A stretch of DNA of 64,000 bases from Hahella ganghwensis DSM 17046 (lineage in GTDB: Bacteria > Pseudomonadota > Gammaproteobacteria > Pseudomonadales > Oleiphilaceae), in the NCBI RefSeq assembly GCF_000376785.1, contig NZ_AQXX01000140.1:1-64000 (forward strand), given 5' to 3'. The notes beneath the pieces were generated by a model that saw only the letters and a program-made list of their open reading frames with translations, made no database searches and was not told where the DNA came from. This document shows, piece after piece, positions 18,716 to 24,889 of the stretch (position 1 is the stretch's first letter; every line of letters begins with the position of its first letter). A program made the translations under genes and the position numbers.

Positions 18716-18757
18716 TCACCCACAACTTTATTAATTTACGGAACCAACAGTTTTCAT

Positions 18758-18847
18758 ATGAAGCAAAACCTGATTCTAATCGTCAACCTAGTCGTCGTGG
18801 TGGTCGTCGTACCATTGCGGGGGTTGTCGTTGCTGAATCAAACCTAA
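18758..18847 (+). CDS. ilvL: ilv operon leader peptide (attenuation peptide)
   Basis: A 29-codon frame starting at ATG 18758 and ending at TAA 18845. It is packed with the three regulatory amino acids: Leu-Ile-Leu-Ile-Val near codons 5-9, Leu11, seven consecutive Val codons at 12-18, and several later Leu codons. It is followed directly by an attenuator and by ilvG and ilvM. Ribosome stalling at Val, Leu or Ile codons when the charged tRNAs are scarce would favour the antiterminator and let transcription continue. The gene is unlike E. coli ilvL in sequence but equivalent in position and composition. Confidence 0.9.
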   Translation: MKQNLILIVNLVVVVVVVPLRGLSLLNQT

Positions 18848-18896
18848 AGTAAGACTTCAGAAAAACCCCCGCTTCGAAAGAACCGGGGGTTTTTTT
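18817..18896 (+). terminator. Transcription attenuator of the ilv operon
   Basis: The terminator stem is AACCCCCG (from 18864) with CGGGGGTT (18884-18891), followed by a T-run to 18896. The antiterminator strand GCGGGGGTT at 18817-18825, inside the leader peptide frame, is exactly complementary to AACCCCCGC at 18864-18872, so the two structures are mutually exclusive. This is the standard amino-acid attenuation design. Confidence 0.9.
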
Positions 18897-18955
18897 ATGC
18901 CCCGGGTCAGCGGAAACGGAGATTGACGATACAACGTGAATAAGCAGGTAGACCC

Positions 18956-20749
18956 ATGAACGGCGCACAAACCATCATCAAAGCCCTGGAGGCACACGGC
19001 ACCAAAACGATATTTGGTTATCCGGGCGGTTGCATCATGCCTCTGTACGATGCCCTGATCGACTCCTCGCTCGAACATATCCTCTGCCGTCACGAACAAG
19101 CAGCGGCACTGGCGGCAGATGGCTTTGCCAGAGCTTCAGGAAAATTGGGCGTTTGCGTGGCCACTTCCGGTCCCGGCGCCACCAACCTGGTCACAGGCGT
19201 CGCCAATGCCTTTATGGACTCCATTCCTCTGCTGGTCATTACCGGCCAGGTTCCGGCTGCATTGATCGGCACTGATGCCTTCCAAGAAACCGATATTCTC
19301 GGCATGACCCTGGGAATCGTAAAACACTCCTATCTGGTGGAATCCGCAGACGAGTTGCCGGACATTATGGAACAGGCCATAGCGCTGGCAACCAGCGGGC
19401 GTCCGGGACCGGTCTGGATTGATATTCCCAAAGACGTTCTGCTGCAGACCCTGGCTGAATCTATCCTCCCGGCGCAGAATTCCTCCACCCAGGCTCCGGC
19501 TCGATCAGAGAAAATCGGCTCAATTGAGACAGCTATCGCCATGATCGCCGCCGCCAAAAAACCGTTAATCTATTCTGGCGGAGGCGTAATCGCAGCAGAT
19601 GCCATTGATGCATTTCGTGATTTTGCTGACAGGCTGCAGATCCCTCAGGTCGTTACCCTGAAAGGCATCGGCAATCCCGGTAAAGATCACCGTCTGAATA
19701 TGGGCATGCTGGGAATGCACGGCTCACGGGCCGCCAACGAAGCCGTGAATGACTGTGATCTGCTGATTGCGATTGCGATTGCGATTGCGATTGCGATTGC
19801 GATTGCGATTGCGATTGCGATTGCGATTGCGATTGCGATTGCGATTGCGATTGCGATTGGAGCAAGATTTGATGACAGAGCCACCGGTAAAGCCACCACT
19901 TTCGCCCCCAATGCACGCATTATTCACATCGACATCGATCAAAGTGAGTTCAATAAAGTCAAACGGGTCGACTGCTCGCTTCACGGTGATATGATCCCCT
20001 TACTTCAGCAACTGCAAAGCAGCTTCGGCACCACACTGCCAATAGAGGACTGGCGCCAGCACTGTCGCCGGATCAAACAGCTTAAGGGCTTCATCCCAGC
20101 TCCCGATGCGGACGAGCAAGCGCCGATCGATGGACCGGAGTTTCTCGATTTACTGTCAAAACTATCCTCCCGGGACACCATCATCGCCTGCGACGTCGGA
20201 CAACATCAGATGTGGGTAGCACAGTATGTGGACTTCGATCATCCGCGCCAGCATCTCAGCAGTGGCGGGCTGGGCACCATGGGATTCGGTCTGCCTGCCG
20301 CCATGGGGGCACAATTTGCCCAACCGGAGGCGAAGGTAATCAATATTTCAGGAGATGGATCCTTCATGATGAACCTTCAGGAAATGGCCACCATCATGCG
20401 ATACAACCTGCCAGTGAAAATTGTCATTCTGGATAATCAGAGACTGGGAATGGTTCGCCAACAACAGGAATTGTTTTATGGCCAGCGATACAGCGAAATC
20501 GATATGTCAGACAACCCTGAGTTCACGAATATCGCCAGCGCCTTCGGCCTGCACTCATTGAAAATAGAACAGCGCCATCAGATGCGCAGAGGCATAGAAA
20601 CCCTGCTCGCCTATCAGGGACCCATGCTGCTGCATGTATGCATCGAATCAAATACCAATGTCTGGCCCATCGTAAAACCCGGCGCCGGTAACCACGAGAT
20701 GATTGAACCGACCTCAACCAACCCTGGCCATAGTGCGGCCTTCAACTGA
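18956..20749 (+). CDS. ilvG: Acetolactate synthase large subunit with (Ile-Ala)n insertion
   Basis: A 597-residue thiamine diphosphate enzyme that condenses pyruvate with pyruvate or 2-ketobutyrate, the first common step of branched-chain amino acid synthesis. The N-terminal TPP-binding block (FGYPGGCIMPLYDAL, catalytic Glu in RHEQAAALAADGFAR), the central FAD region (GARFDDRATGK) and the C-terminal GDGSFMMN ... N motif are present. Between DLL and GARFDDR, where relatives carry one or two hydrophobic residues more, there is an Ile-Ala alternation over residues 271-301 encoded by a perfect hexanucleotide repeat. Without about 28 of these residues the length (569) would be normal. It heads ilvG-ilvM behind the attenuator. 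Whether the enzyme is active with this insert in a buried strand is uncertain. Confidence 0.93.
   Translation: MNGAQTIIKALEAHGTKTIFGYPGGCIMPLYDALIDSSLEHILCRHEQAAALAADGFARASGKLGVCVATSGPGATNLVTGVANAFMDSIPLLVITGQVPAALIGTDAFQETDILGMTLGIVKHSYLVESADELPDIMEQAIALATSGRPGPVWIDIPKDVLLQTLAESILPAQNSSTQAPARSEKIGSIETAIAMIAAAKKPLIYSGGGVIAADAIDAFRDFADRLQIPQVVTLKGIGNPGKDHRLNMGMLGMHGSRAANEAVNDCDLLIAIAIAIAIAIAIAIAIAIAIAIAIAIAIAIGARFDDRATGKATTFAPNARIIHIDIDQSEFNKVKRVDCSLHGDMIPLLQQLQSSFGTTLPIEDWRQHCRRIKQLKGFIPAPDADEQAPIDGPEFLDLLSKLSSRDTIIACDVGQHQMWVAQYVDFDHPRQHLSSGGLGTMGFGLPAAMGAQFAQPEAKVINISGDGSFMMNLQEMATIMRYNLPVKIVILDNQRLGMVRQQQELFYGQRYSEIDMSDNPEFTNIASAFGLHSLKIEQRHQMRRGIETLLAYQGPMLLHVCIESNTNVWPIVKPGAGNHEMIEPTSTNPGHSAAFN
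19765..19859 (+). repeat. Perfect (GATTGC)n hexanucleotide microsatellite inside ilvG
   Basis: Fifteen uninterrupted GATTGC copies occupy 19765-19854, followed by the partial copy GATTG. In frame they read as 16 ATT and 15 GCG codons alternating. The unit length of six keeps the reading frame for any copy number, so slippage would change the length of the Ile-Ala run by two residues at a time. Confidence 0.98.
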
Positions 20750-20785: not shown

Positions 20786-21049
20786 ATGAACAGTCAATCG
20801 AATTCCTATAATTTGCAGTGCCAGTTCAGCACCCAGACAGGCGCAATTGAACGTCTACTCCGCATGATCAGAGTCAGGGGCTTCACCGTACAGGACTTAC
20901 GTCTGGAGATGATGGACGGATATTACCAGGCAACATTCACGGTGACCGGCCAAAGATGTATTGCCAACCTGCTCAGCCAATTGGACAAGTTAATCGAAGT
21001 AGTTACTGTCAGCCAGATGCCTGAGCAGGCGCTGGAGAAGTGTGCCTGA
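20786..21049 (+). CDS. ilvM: Acetolactate synthase small (regulatory) subunit, IlvM type
   Basis: An 87-residue ACT-domain protein (LQCQFSTQTGAIERLLRMIRVRGFTVQDLRLEM), short like IlvM rather than the longer IlvN or IlvH. It binds and activates the large subunit and may carry feedback control. It lies 36 nt after ilvG with an AAAGGTAG-type site, clearly co-transcribed. No ilvE or ilvD follows, unlike the enterobacterial ilvGMEDA operon; the nearest IlvE-like gene is 8 kb upstream. Confidence 0.9.
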   Translation: MNSQSNSYNLQCQFSTQTGAIERLLRMIRVRGFTVQDLRLEMMDGYYQATFTVTGQRCIANLLSQLDKLIEVVTVSQMPEQALEKCA

Positions 21050-21069: not shown

Positions 21070-21099
21070 GATCAGTCCCAATCCACCCAGGGGCTGATC
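21070..21099. terminator. Hairpin at the ilvM/kinase convergent junction
   Basis: GATCAGTCCC at 21070-21079 pairs with GGGGCTGATC at 21090-21099 with one mismatch around a 10-nt loop. It lies in the 48-bp gap between convergent genes. There is no strong T-run on either side, so terminator function is only likely. Confidence 0.45.
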
Positions 21100-22897
21100 A
21101 CCAGCTCAGTTTATTGTCATCACTCCCTTTGCTCCACTCCAGGTAGACCTCGGAGCCCTTTAGTTTTTCCAGGTAGGGCATGACATGTGGCTTAAGAAAG
21201 CGATAGCCATGGCCATAAGCAAACTCCTCTGCCGCCAGTGCCACGACCAGCAGCCAGAATAGCCAGACTTTCCAGCGAATGGGAGGACGTTCCCGCCGAC
21301 GAACCTCGGCAGCCGCCCTGTTAACCTTTTTTTGGATCTCCCGTGTCTGCTGTTCTGCTTTTTCTTCTTTAAGCTTTTTAACGATCCCCTTAAGGTCCGC
21401 CACCACGATATCACTGTTGGGATAGCGCTTTTCTTCCTGGGGATCGAGCAGGCGGGTAACCACTTCCTGGACTCTGGGAGATAATTCAGTGAAGCGCTTA
21501 CTGCGCACCAGTCGGTTTCCACGCACCGACGGCGGGTGCCCCGTCAGTGCGTGGTAGCAGATGGCGCCCAAGCTGTAGAGATCCTTGACCGCTCCCTTTG
21601 CCTTGGGATCTTCATACCAATTCGCTTCTTCCGAGTCGTCATAGTGTGCCTTTAAACCAAAATCTGCCAGTTGCACTCGTCGCTCATGATCAAACAGCAC
21701 ATTACTTGGACGCAGGTTGCCATGGTAGACCCGGTTACGATGAGCAAAAGCCAGGCCTTCGGAAATCTGGTACGCCCAATCCATCATTGCCAGCTCTTCT
21801 ACCGGTGATAGCATTTGTTCTGCCAGAGATCCGCCATTGAGGTACTCAGTGATCAGAGTAACCCCTTCCACACTATGTGATACGCCCAGAATCGGCACAA
21901 TAGAGGGATGAGCCAGTCGACTGAGTAGTTTATGCTCTTTCAGTCCATCGGCGTCCGGCGGTAATTTCTTAACCACCATCAATTTCTTCTTGGCCAGATC
22001 TTCGTAAAGATAAACTGAACAATATTTATCTTCTTTCAGGACATCCAGAAGGGAAAACTGTAATTCCAGCCCCTTGGAGTGAGAAGCTGCCCGCTCTTTC
22101 TGAGCGCGACTCAGGTGACCGCCCTGAGACAGGTGCAGCAGACTGTCTTTTACTTCATTTGCCGATGCCGGCCTCTCTTTGGGGTCCGCTTCCAGGCATC
22201 TCATGATAAGGTCATTAAGGCCCGGCGGTATTTCCGGTTCAAATTTGCGTGGAGGGGGAATATTGTTCTGTGGACAGACACCTGTATACAGCTCATACAT
22301 GGTGATCCCCAAAGCATAGACATCACTCGCAATTGACGCGGCTTCGGGGTTTTCGCGAATTTCCGGTGCCATGTAGGCGGTGGTTCCCACAATACTTTCA
22401 GCCTGGGTATGCAGTGCGCCACCGGACTCTGGATTGTGAAAATGCGCGATACCAAAGTCGGCCATGCGCACCTGCCACTCTTTGTCGATCAGAATATTAC
22501 CGGGTTTGATATCCCTGTGAATAACGCCGTTCTTATGGGCGTAGGCCAGTGCCTTGCATACCTGAACCAGGGTATCGATCTTACCTGCGAAATCCAGTTT
22601 GCCCCGATTGATGGCGTCTTCCAGGGACATGCCTTCCACATATTCCATAACGAAATAGGGACGACCTTTCCCTGTGACCCCCTTATCGATCACATGAATA
22701 ATATGAGGATGCGCCAACTGGGCAATGATAAGAGATTCTTTATCGAACCTCTGTTGGATTTCCGGATGATCTTTTAAATTGGCCGCCATGATCTTGATGG
22801 CCACAGGACGCTGCAGGGACTCCTGGATGGCCTTGTATACCGTGGCCATTCCGCCTTCACCCAACTTGCCGACAACCTTATACCCCTGCCAAGCCAT
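21098..22897 (-). CDS. Membrane-anchored Ser/Thr kinase with tandem pseudokinase domain
   Basis: A 599-residue Hanks-type kinase. Domain 1 (about residues 6-255) is complete: Gly loop GEGGMATVY, Lys35 in VAIK, HRDIKPGN with Asp129, DFG 147-149 and APE. Domain 2 (about 280-505) keeps DFG (412-414) and a VVKK lysine, but the catalytic loop reads HGNLRPSN, so the HRD Asp and the catalytic-loop Lys are replaced; it should be a pseudokinase. A Lys/Glu/Arg-rich linker leads to one membrane helix at about 543-560 and a short outside tail. The partner phosphatase lies 66 nt upstream on the same strand, so the two probably form an operon. Upstream regulation is not visible. Confidence 0.9.
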   Translation of the reverse strand: MAWQGYKVVGKLGEGGMATVYKAIQESLQRPVAIKIMAANLKDHPEIQQRFDKESLIIAQLAHPHIIHVIDKGVTGKGRPYFVMEYVEGMSLEDAINRGKLDFAGKIDTLVQVCKALAYAHKNGVIHRDIKPGNILIDKEWQVRMADFGIAHFHNPESGGALHTQAESIVGTTAYMAPEIRENPEAASIASDVYALGITMYELYTGVCPQNNIPPPRKFEPEIPPGLNDLIMRCLEADPKERPASANEVKDSLLHLSQGGHLSRAQKERAASHSKGLELQFSLLDVLKEDKYCSVYLYEDLAKKKLMVVKKLPPDADGLKEHKLLSRLAHPSIVPILGVSHSVEGVTLITEYLNGGSLAEQMLSPVEELAMMDWAYQISEGLAFAHRNRVYHGNLRPSNVLFDHERRVQLADFGLKAHYDDSEEANWYEDPKAKGAVKDLYSLGAICYHALTGHPPSVRGNRLVRSKRFTELSPRVQEVVTRLLDPQEEKRYPNSDIVVADLKGIVKKLKEEKAEQQTREIQKKVNRAAAEVRRRERPPIRWKVWLFWLLVVALAAEEFAYGHGYRFLKPHVMPYLEKLKGSEVYLEWSKGSDDNKLSW

Positions 22898-22963
22898 AAT
22901 CAGATATCGCCTTTCCCTAACAGTTTCAACTCATACTCCAACTGTATTTTTTAGAATCTTGAT

Positions 22964-23794
22964 TCACAGTCCCCAGATCATTGCCAGGAAGAGCAACAAT
23001 GCCAGCACACCTCCCAGTACCATGTAATGCCAGGGCCTTTGTGGAGTAGTATTTTCGCCTTCCTGGCGAGCTTGAATTGACTGTGGGCCGGTGTCGATAT
23101 TCTGTTCTCCGGCGGATTCGTCTTCCAGCACAACGACCGTCACATTGTCGTCCGCCCCATTATTGAGTGCTTTCTCTACCAATCGATCAGCGATTTCCTG
23201 CACTGTAACATCTGCGGCCATAAACTCTAACAACCCCTTATCATTGACCACTCCATGCAATCCGTCACTGCACAGGAGCCAACGGTCACCCGGCAGTCTG
23301 TCGACTTCCATGACCTCGACCTGAAGTCCACCCTCACCGGCGGCTCCCACGGCCTGCGTCAGGACATGTCGCATTCGGACACTTTCTTCCTTGGTCAGAT
23401 GATTACTTTGCTGGACGACCAGTGAGTGGTCTTCACTGAGCTGCTCAAGTTTACCATCACGCAACAGGTAGATCCTGCTGTCACCTACCCAGGCCAGGAT
23501 CAGATGCCTGCCATCCTCCTTCAATGCGACAATCGTGGAGGCAGCATAGCCTCGCTCTCCGCCGCTATGGTCCCTCATTAACTGTTCATGGCAACTGTGA
23601 ATCGCTTTATCCAGGTCATTGCCCTGCCTGACCTGTTGATACAATTGCGTACATACGGTAGCACTGGCAACCTCTCCACTGTCACCGCCTCCGACTCCAT
23701 CGGCGACAGCATATAACCCCAGCGACGGGTCCAGCAGCCCGTTATCCTGATTTTGACGACGTTGCCCCTTGTGGGTGGCAAAAGCTGACTGCAT
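22964..23794 (-). CDS. PP2C-family Ser/Thr phosphatase, C-terminally membrane-anchored
   Basis: A 276-residue phosphatase from ATG 23794 (a TTG at 23803 is possible). The metal-binding motifs are in order: RRQNQDN, YAVADGVGGGDSGEVAS, LAWVGDSRIYLLRDGKLEQLSEDHS, LCSDGLHGVV and GADDNVTVVV. A C-terminal hydrophobic segment (WHYMVLGGVLALLLFLAMIWGL) anchors it with the catalytic domain in the cytoplasm. It would reverse the action of the adjacent kinase. Relatives occur in type VI secretion loci (PppA), but no such genes are present here. Confidence 0.9.
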   Translation of the reverse strand: MQSAFATHKGQRRQNQDNGLLDPSLGLYAVADGVGGGDSGEVASATVCTQLYQQVRQGNDLDKAIHSCHEQLMRDHSGGERGYAASTIVALKEDGRHLILAWVGDSRIYLLRDGKLEQLSEDHSLVVQQSNHLTKEESVRMRHVLTQAVGAAGEGGLQVEVMEVDRLPGDRWLLCSDGLHGVVNDKGLLEFMAADVTVQEIADRLVEKALNNGADDNVTVVVLEDESAGEQNIDTGPQSIQARQEGENTTPQRPWHYMVLGGVLALLLFLAMIWGL

Positions 23795-24007
23795 TCTTTC
23801 CAAGTCCCTGATCTTGGGAATAAAAAACTAATTGATTTAAACTATAGTCGGTAAACACCAATTACTTCAGTATAGATGGGTTTTCAGATTTCGATCCTGG
23901 TCTATACTGTTTTACTGAAGGATTTATCCTGTTGTTATCAAAGTATTACCGGGATAAAGTTACTCGCCCTCCCTATATCTGGACTGGTACAAGAGGCAGA
24001 TGGCCAA

Positions 24008-24889
24008 ATGTTAAAACTTCAATTTGTTGACGGTAGCCGGGAAAGCATCTGGTTGGTCGAACCTCGTCTGCGGTTCGGCAAGCACGCCGACAATAATGTG
24101 GTCATCAATCAGCCAAACATCGAAGACTTTCATGCCGAAATTCGTCTGAAGGATGAAGAACTTTATTTACTCAATCTGAAACCGGAATTCCTGGTCGGAG
24201 TCAACGGTAAGCGGGTAAACAAAGCAGTCAAAATCAAAGAAAGTGATGTGATCCAGTTGGGCCAGACCAAGATGAAGGTAGTCCAACCTTCCGCCGATCA
24301 CAAACAAAAACCGGAAAATCAGCAGGTTCAGGAAAGCGATGAGTGGGGCCTGCAGGCAACTGCGAGTTGGGCAACACAGTCTTTTTATCCGATTGAGGAG
24401 TCCGTCATTATCGGCCGTGATGAGCAATGTGACATCACCGTGCCTGTTTCTCACTTGTCGCGGCAACACGCTCAACTGACAGTCGCCGGCAATTACCTGC
24501 TGGTGAAAGACCTGGGCTCAACCAACGGCACCTATCTCAATGGCGAGCGAATCACCCAGGGCAGAGCCAAACCCGGAGACAAACTGCGCTTCGATGTGGT
24601 GAATTTCACAGTGACCGGCCCCCCCGACGATGCAGACCTTACTATTGTCAGACCCGGTTCTGTCGGAGCGCCAGCAGCAGCGGCATCTCAACCCGCTGCG
24701 GCAAAAGCAGCCGCCAAAGCCTCATCGCGCCCCAAACCGGCAACCAAGCCAAAGCAGACCCAGACCGATCAGGAACCTTCTCCTGATGCCAGCAAAAAAA
24801 CCGGAAGTGGCGGCGGAGTGCTGCTGTACACCGTGATTGGATTCGTCGTCGTGTTTGCTGCTCTATCCGCTTTCTTTTTTCTGAAATGA
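24008..24889 (+). CDS. Double-FHA-domain protein, C-terminally membrane-anchored
   Basis: A 293-residue protein from ATG 24008 (GAGG eleven bases upstream); the open frame reaches back to 23876 but the extra part is not domain-like. The first FHA domain (about residues 5-95; FGKHADNNVVINQPNIEDFHAEI) has lost the usual Arg and Ser phosphothreonine contacts. The second (about 115-205; IIGRDEQCDITVPVSHLSRQHAQL ... LGSTNGTYLNGERI) is canonical. An Ala/Lys/Pro-rich linker leads to one membrane helix at the very C-terminus. It is divergent from the phosphatase and kinase, so all three members of the module are tethered to the inner membrane. It likely reads phosphothreonine marks made by the kinase. 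Confidence 0.88.
   Translation: MLKLQFVDGSRESIWLVEPRLRFGKHADNNVVINQPNIEDFHAEIRLKDEELYLLNLKPEFLVGVNGKRVNKAVKIKESDVIQLGQTKMKVVQPSADHKQKPENQQVQESDEWGLQATASWATQSFYPIEESVIIGRDEQCDITVPVSHLSRQHAQLTVAGNYLLVKDLGSTNGTYLNGERITQGRAKPGDKLRFDVVNFTVTGPPDDADLTIVRPGSVGAPAAAASQPAAAKAAAKASSRPKPATKPKQTQTDQEPSPDASKKTGSGGGVLLYTVIGFVVVFAALSAFFFLK

Follow-up and report, generated by a model that had tools for sequence, protein, structure and literature searches.

Simple-sequence contingency loci are phase-variable genes with tracts of short repeated units, and among bacterial microsatellites those that shift the reading frame draw most attention, in-frame ones far less. Escherichia coli K-12 carries the gene order ilvL-ilvX-ilvG-ilvM, in which ilvG, the catalytic gene of acetohydroxyacid synthase (AHAS) II, is annotated as a pseudogene. 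This strain keeps other AHAS enzymes and is, by analogy, a precedent for life without AHAS II. In AHAS III, residues R182, L272, H292, R313 and R317 are named as important for FAD binding; the same review describes the E. coli AHAS II as valine-insensitive (PMC5727371). An in-frame hexanucleotide has been described in mutL of Salmonella and E. coli, where slipped-strand mispairing changes the copies of a 6-bp repeat and the function of a housekeeping protein is switched by copy number between working and defective forms, mutL and 6bp-delta-mutL (PMC2955026). Expansion is also described as dependent on strand: with CAG as lagging-strand template, and CTG as the nascent sequence, an expansion bias is reported in human-cell plasmid and yeast systems (PMC3310812). 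The GGGGCC repeat of C9orf72 is another expanded, hairpin-forming repeat (PMC4661408). Among the listed titles and abstract openings of open-licence PMC articles, no report was found of an acetolactate synthase with an in-frame hexanucleotide repeat. Here we discuss such a repeat in ilvG of Hahella ganghwensis DSM 17046, within a window that corresponds to the whole stretch of 64,000 nucleotides analysed.

The gene lies on a contig of 146,272 bases belonging to a 6.56 Mb draft genome of 144 contigs (Table 1). Its product matches the acetolactate synthase 2 catalytic subunit family NF006524 with 821.2 bits, above the curated cut-off of 738, and the order leader peptide-ilvG-ilvM is present; both agree with the name ilvG given to the gene in a first-pass annotation of the same DNA. 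Leader-like open reading frames, recognized as at least 7 Ile/Leu/Val per 12 residues and at most 350 bases upstream of ilvG, accompany the gene at 18 of the 20 loci examined, the present one included, and none satisfied this rule at the two others (L026 and L027). The segment comprising the leader peptide, which contains LILIVNLVVVVVVV, and the terminator-like hairpin ahead of ilvG constitutes an ilvL-type attenuator candidate. The stem of this hairpin is present in both the minimum free energy and the centroid structures, and by analogy to the E. coli ilvL leader it is a probable attenuator. For the ilvM-like product, the top NCBIfam match is NF008362 (acetolactate synthase 2 small subunit) at 58.1 bits, under its cut-off of 68. 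With leader, hairpin and ilvM-like gene all present, neither the control region nor the partner subunit is missing.

Table 1. Features of the ilvG locus (positions in the window)
Feature	Position	Strand	Details and basis
ilvL-type leader peptide	18758..18847	+	29 aa, MKQNLILIVNLVVVVVVVPLRGLSLLNQT, Leu/Ile/Val-rich; ORF
Terminator-like hairpin followed by seven T, in the gap between leader and ilvG	18861..18896	+	RNA fold of 18750-18960
ilvG, acetolactate synthase II catalytic subunit (activity putative)	18956..20749	+	597 aa, no internal stop; NF006524; Pfam TPP_enzyme_N, M, C
Codon of His255 (GMHG motif), predicted FAD-contact position 5' of the insert	19718..19720	+	invariant in alignment A1
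(GATTGC)15.8 perfect array	19765..19859	+	encodes (Ile-Ala)15-Ile; +84 bp (14 units) relative to relatives
Codons G302-A-R-F-D-D-R308	19859..19879	+	sequence; PMC5727371
ilvM-like small subunit	20786..21049	+	87 aa, ACT domain; Pfam ACT_5 57.5 bits, cut-off 27

Both direct reading and TRF find 15.8 copies of GATTGC, all of them perfect; the TRF row (period 6, 100% match, 0% indel) scores 190, and the runner-up among the 10 rows of the window scores 65. The first-pass annotation had announced fifteen perfect copies and a partial one in frame, expanding an Ile-Ala run, and this description is accurate: residues 271-301 of IlvG are (Ile-Ala)15-Ile, followed by G302ARFDDR308, and the reading frame is open throughout. 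For units of at most 12 bases, the longest perfect arrays arising by chance in five order-5 Markov simulations of 400 kb each measured 15-17 bases, and the next longest in the genome itself measure 35 and 34 bases (1,389,834 bases sampled, of which 10,743 are N). Four exact tandem copies of GATTGC occur in a single genome, the present one, out of 369 drawn from the class. Rfam matches at the tract (MIR7526, MIR2933, mir-H3 and symR) are all under their gathering scores and stem from the self-complementary repeat; a functional RNA at this position was rejected.

The genus Hahella is not poor in perfect short-unit arrays and may even be prone to them. In 400 kb of the sister genome (G004), six perfect arrays of at least 34 bases were found, the longest of 79; three run over the 3' terminus of a long open reading frame, two lie only in doubtful frames of 61-74 codons and one is outside any frame of at least 60 codons. 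Perfect arrays of this genome include GGTGAGC repeated 11.3 times (L246:28-106) and TCTATCCGC repeated 6.1 times (L249:12652-12706), and an in-frame 9-base repeat (L241:9014-9050) encodes a Ser-Thr-Glu run at the C-terminus of what looks by eye like an OmpR-like response regulator. The sample of the genome under study holds two other arrays of at least 34 bases, the first with a 9-base unit extending over 35 bases inside a frame of 550 codons, the second within a frame of 192 codons whose status is doubtful. The 9-base unit (contig C137, L228:17529-17563) is repeated 3.9 times in frame as an RQM/RQI run, and the 550-aa product appears by eye to be terminase-like, of phage type. None of these arrays is as long as the one in ilvG, which is also alone among them in being known to occupy a strand conserved across relatives.

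This conservation becomes apparent when the span from Asp268 to Arg304 is compared: it counts 37 residues in the present protein and 9 in all 80 aligned relatives, namely 15/15 in alignment A1 and 65/65 in alignment A2. The records of A2 were drawn from many phyla and 65 of 80 loci were used; L040 and L064, whose translated span contained a stop or an X, were omitted together with 13 others to keep the alignment short. Twenty-eight residues, or 14 units, are extra in this IlvG, as the first-pass annotation had estimated. The nearest species compared, the sister, whose protein is 82% identical, is devoid of the insert and reads Asp-Leu-Leu-Ile-Ala-Val-Gly-Ala-Arg at the site. No length change besides the present insert was seen at this site in any of the 80 relatives. 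A long Ile-Ala strand fixed in related species, named in the same annotation as the observation that would contradict its proposal, was looked for and is absent from all 80; the insert is thus ruled out as a fixed feature of the family. A broader motif survey of 110 loci returned standard spacing in 106, the present gene, and three others that were resolved separately: in L106 the motif was unmatched and direct reading gives the standard length, and in L024 and L025 the motif had been matched too far upstream, their spacing being standard in A1.

The units of the tract show no synonymous difference between them. Of the 91 Ile/Ala codons that the aligned gene shares with the sister, 51 carry a synonymous difference, and among 465 codons specifying the same residue in both, 242 differ at the third base. 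Because the units are identical while shared codons have diverged to this extent, comparison of the two sequences indicates that the tract arose long after the two species separated, or that its purity is maintained by continual slippage; the recent slippage proposed at the outset is supported by this contrast. The rest of the gene carries no sign of decay: outside the insert, all positions invariant among the A1 relatives are retained, amino-acid changes number 25 on the own branch and 25 on the sister branch (54 being ambiguous), and the leader peptide and ilvM are retained as well. An old pseudogene is ruled out by the open frame and the equal branch changes. The loss of function, if real, is therefore too young to show, or absent.

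The position of the insert nevertheless bears on function. Spacing to R313 suggests that His255 is the equivalent of H292 of AHAS III-A, and by spacing Arg304 and Arg308 would be the equivalents of the FAD-binding R313 and R317 (PMC5727371). The insert would then be strung between equivalents of known FAD contacts, in agreement with the first-pass placement of it just before GARFDDR and near the FAD site. The NF006524 match falls into two stretches, the best of which stops at residue 274 when the repeat has already begun, and the Pfam TPP_enzyme_M match likewise comes in two stretches. Measured against a standard of our own, taken from the alignments, of a continuous middle domain with an unbroken FAD-binding segment, this IlvG deviates by its 28-residue insert between His255 and Arg304. 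The protein, whose fold is otherwise AHAS-like, is accordingly best regarded as IlvG by descent, with a putative AHAS activity. Kyte-Doolittle hydropathy of the insert averages 3.29 over 19 residues, a mean that nowhere exceeds 1.5 in the protein of the sister.

Structure prediction by AlphaFold2 retained the overall AHAS fold with a mean pLDDT of 87.6, stability not being among what such a model measures. Strand 269-273 is formed, partly from the start of the repeat, residues 276-302 have pLDDT below 50, and the insert is modelled as an external loop, the fold being normal in other respects. The block 301-310 containing GARFDDR has a mean pLDDT of 62, versus 82 for the matching block of an insert-free Marinobacter control. 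When the predicted structure was compared to the PDB, the best 50 matches listed were all AHAS entries, with TM-scores of about 0.81-0.89 by query length. Since the insert separates the equivalents of known FAD contacts, we consider it most likely that AHAS II has lost its activity or retains little of it.

Such an impairment would be tolerable because a second AHAS is apparently intact. The genes ilvI, ilvH and ilvC are adjacent on another contig (C141), all open and each above its family cut-off. The first-pass annotation had raised the question of a second AHAS, and this cluster answers it; the same cluster weakens the description of ilvG as an essential metabolic gene, at least in the sense of an irreplaceable one. 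As in E. coli K-12, the AHAS II catalytic gene lies between an ilvL-type leader and ilvM; the difference is that the K-12 gene is annotated as a pseudogene, whereas the present frame is open and its expansion in frame.

The two strands of the tract differ in their capacity to fold. As DNA, the sense strand (95 nt) reaches -23.2 kcal/mol (z -3.64), a value equalled by none of 200 shuffles, and the antisense strand -2.8 kcal/mol (z +3.52), with all 200 shuffles at least as good; one strand pairs with itself far better than the other, as hairpin-driven expansion would demand. The self-pairing register of the sense strand consists exclusively of A-T, G-C and G-T pairs and allows a continuous hairpin, and the mRNA in context is predicted to form a stem of 43 pairs, 14 of them G-U. 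Placed among 670 hexamer classes, the sense repeat is one of 56 that are near-fully paired in DNA and has rank 53 in RNA; a strand asymmetry at least this large is found in 30 of the 670 in DNA and in 16 in RNA. By DNA folding energy its rank is 91 of 670, better folding is achieved by three other codon pairs for Ile-Ala, the best single DNA fold represents 2.4% of the ensemble and the centroid is empty. The models thus suggest a strand-asymmetric hairpin, unexceptional by energy, as a clue to the expansion. With about 1.8 seed copies no hairpin is possible, and the first duplications therefore need a different cause.

The direction of replication was approached by comparison. Six relatives assembled as a single contig have an ilvG match (G001, G002, G006, G012, G015 and G024), and in all six the distance from ilvG to dnaA is about 0.10-0.24 Mb, with ilvG directed to dnaA and hence running against the fork if the origin is near dnaA. 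On the contig under study the + strand has a negative GC skew in each of the 12 blocks, and + strand genes are C-rich at four-fold sites. From the relatives and the skew, we infer that ilvG is probably replicated head-on in this genome. The usual gene-strand bias favours the leading strand, and coding bases on the contig (71 kb on the + strand versus 45 kb on the - strand) go in the direction opposite to this reading. Head-on replication would make the foldable sense sequence the nascent lagging strand, the sense strand itself serving as leading-strand template, which would be equivalent to the CAG-template arrangement described in PMC3310812. A mismatch-repair defect was rejected as the cause, as far as sequence can tell: mutS and mutL are present, their products scoring 1206.5 bits (cut-off 641.7) and 646.5 bits (cut-off 180), both near full length.

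Taken together, a recent in-frame slippage expansion within a conserved core strand, which harms AHAS II and is tolerated through ilvIH, appears to us, with some reserve, the probable explanation. A seed of about 1.8 copies (GATTGC GATTG, coding for the Ile-Ala-Ile of the core strand) would have arisen by chance and gained 14 units; this seed is deduced from the flanks, and none of the relatives shows it. The sense strand may fold through Watson-Crick and G-T pairs and the antisense strand would not, and head-on transcription, by offering the foldable strand as nascent lagging strand, would favour the growth of hairpin repeats. The 28 hydrophobic residues pushed between a core beta-strand and the FAD-binding GARFDDR would abolish or reduce AHAS II, and the cell would survive on the acetohydroxyacid synthase supplied by ilvIH.

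Several other explanations have to be weighed against this slippage expansion. The (Ile-Ala)14 segment might simply loop out of the middle domain and leave a functional enzyme, as the AlphaFold2 model would have it with strand 269-273 and other core elements retained around a disordered insert; the AHAS entries among the best 50 PDB matches listed and the equal number of changes on the two branches point the same way. The insert is nonetheless much more hydrophobic than anything in the sister protein, so that aggregation, membrane mis-sorting or a broken fold would be likelier than a loop in water, and it joins directly to the presumed FAD-binding arginines (PMC5727371); we regard a working enzyme of this kind as unlikely. 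Alternatively, the repeat may act as a reversible in-frame switch or tuner, a population containing mixed copy numbers whose IlvG products, active or not according to length, would dial AHAS II without frameshift. A 6-bp unit indeed preserves the frame, the remainder of ilvG, its leader and ilvM have escaped decay, and a tract both perfect and hairpin-capable is expected to contract and expand frequently; the mutL precedent makes an in-frame hexanucleotide switch anything but fanciful (PMC2955026). The copy-number variation that this calls for is, however, hypothetical, our data coming from a single assembly. No aligned relative has space for 3 copies (9 residues), so the locus is not maintained across species, and with zero length change in 80/80 relatives a graded activity at intermediate lengths is unlikely. 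Such a tuner is, in our judgement, improbable. Tuning of feedback control, also entertained at first, finds no evidence here, and valine insensitivity is described for E. coli AHAS II (PMC5727371); the alternative proposed alongside it, inactivation of the gene, fits better. A more speculative and rather unlikely extension would see in ilvG a bacterial counterpart of human repeat-expansion loci, in which a strand-asymmetric, hairpin-forming repeat of a gene transcribed head-on gains and loses units in frame within the core of the enzyme. AHAS II would thereby be silenced reversibly in some cells of a population, the leader, the frame and the partner subunit remaining intact.

An assembly artefact, with a tract that is short in reality or a copy number chosen by the assembler, has to be considered for a draft of 144 contigs. 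ALLPATHS-LG uses 96-mers by default, and 95 being 96 - 1, a de Bruijn assembly with 96-mers, if the draft was made in this way, would shrink any longer tract of such phase to exactly 95 bases. Yet collapse in a de Bruijn graph makes a repeat shorter and would not create one, and the likelier error would therefore be a true tract that is longer. Many contig ends extend some 75-300 bases into repeats that they share (2,426 for one pair), which suggests that the joined reads were long enough to cross 95 bases, and no fixed overlap betraying a k-mer was found in the 39 of 288 contig ends examined. We find an artefact very improbable. The existence of the expansion is safer than the exact copy number, on account of the draft assembly and the coincidence of the 95-base length.

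Compared with the systems cited above, ilvG resembles mutL in having an in-frame hexanucleotide within a conserved protein and exceeds the three tandem units of that repeat; mutL loses or gains from 3 copies, whereas ilvG, a metabolic enzyme gene, has 15.8 against a deduced ancestral 1.8 (PMC2955026). With contingency loci it shares a long perfect short-unit array in coding sequence, expected to be unstable. Its unit is however a multiple of three and lies wholly within the open reading frame of a biosynthetic gene, so that a change in copies shifts neither frame nor promoter spacing and provides no on/off frameshift, and the repeat is retained in none of the 80 aligned relatives, all of other species. 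The likeness to CTG/CAG (PMC3310812) and GGGGCC (PMC4661408) repeats resides in strand-asymmetric self-pairing and in a replication orientation expected to favour expansion; the ilvG hairpin differs in being computed, in its G-T wobbles, in its modest length and in its location in a coding region of a bacterial chromosome.

A perfect hexanucleotide of 95 bases in a conserved enzyme core would provide a natural reporter of both expansion and contraction, selectable by growth through isoleucine/valine prototrophy where the host has no other AHAS. The strand and fork-direction rule of trinucleotides could then be tested with a six-base G-T hairpin unit on a bacterial chromosome. The locus also illustrates that a reading frame may be open and match its family without this proving that the enzyme works.

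Directly 3' of ilvM, none of ilvE, ilvD and ilvA was seen. In this region (21098-24889), genes recognized by eye as Ser/Thr kinase-like and PP2C phosphatase-like occupy the - strand and converge with ilvGM; an FHA-like gene, likewise named by eye, lies beyond them on the + strand.
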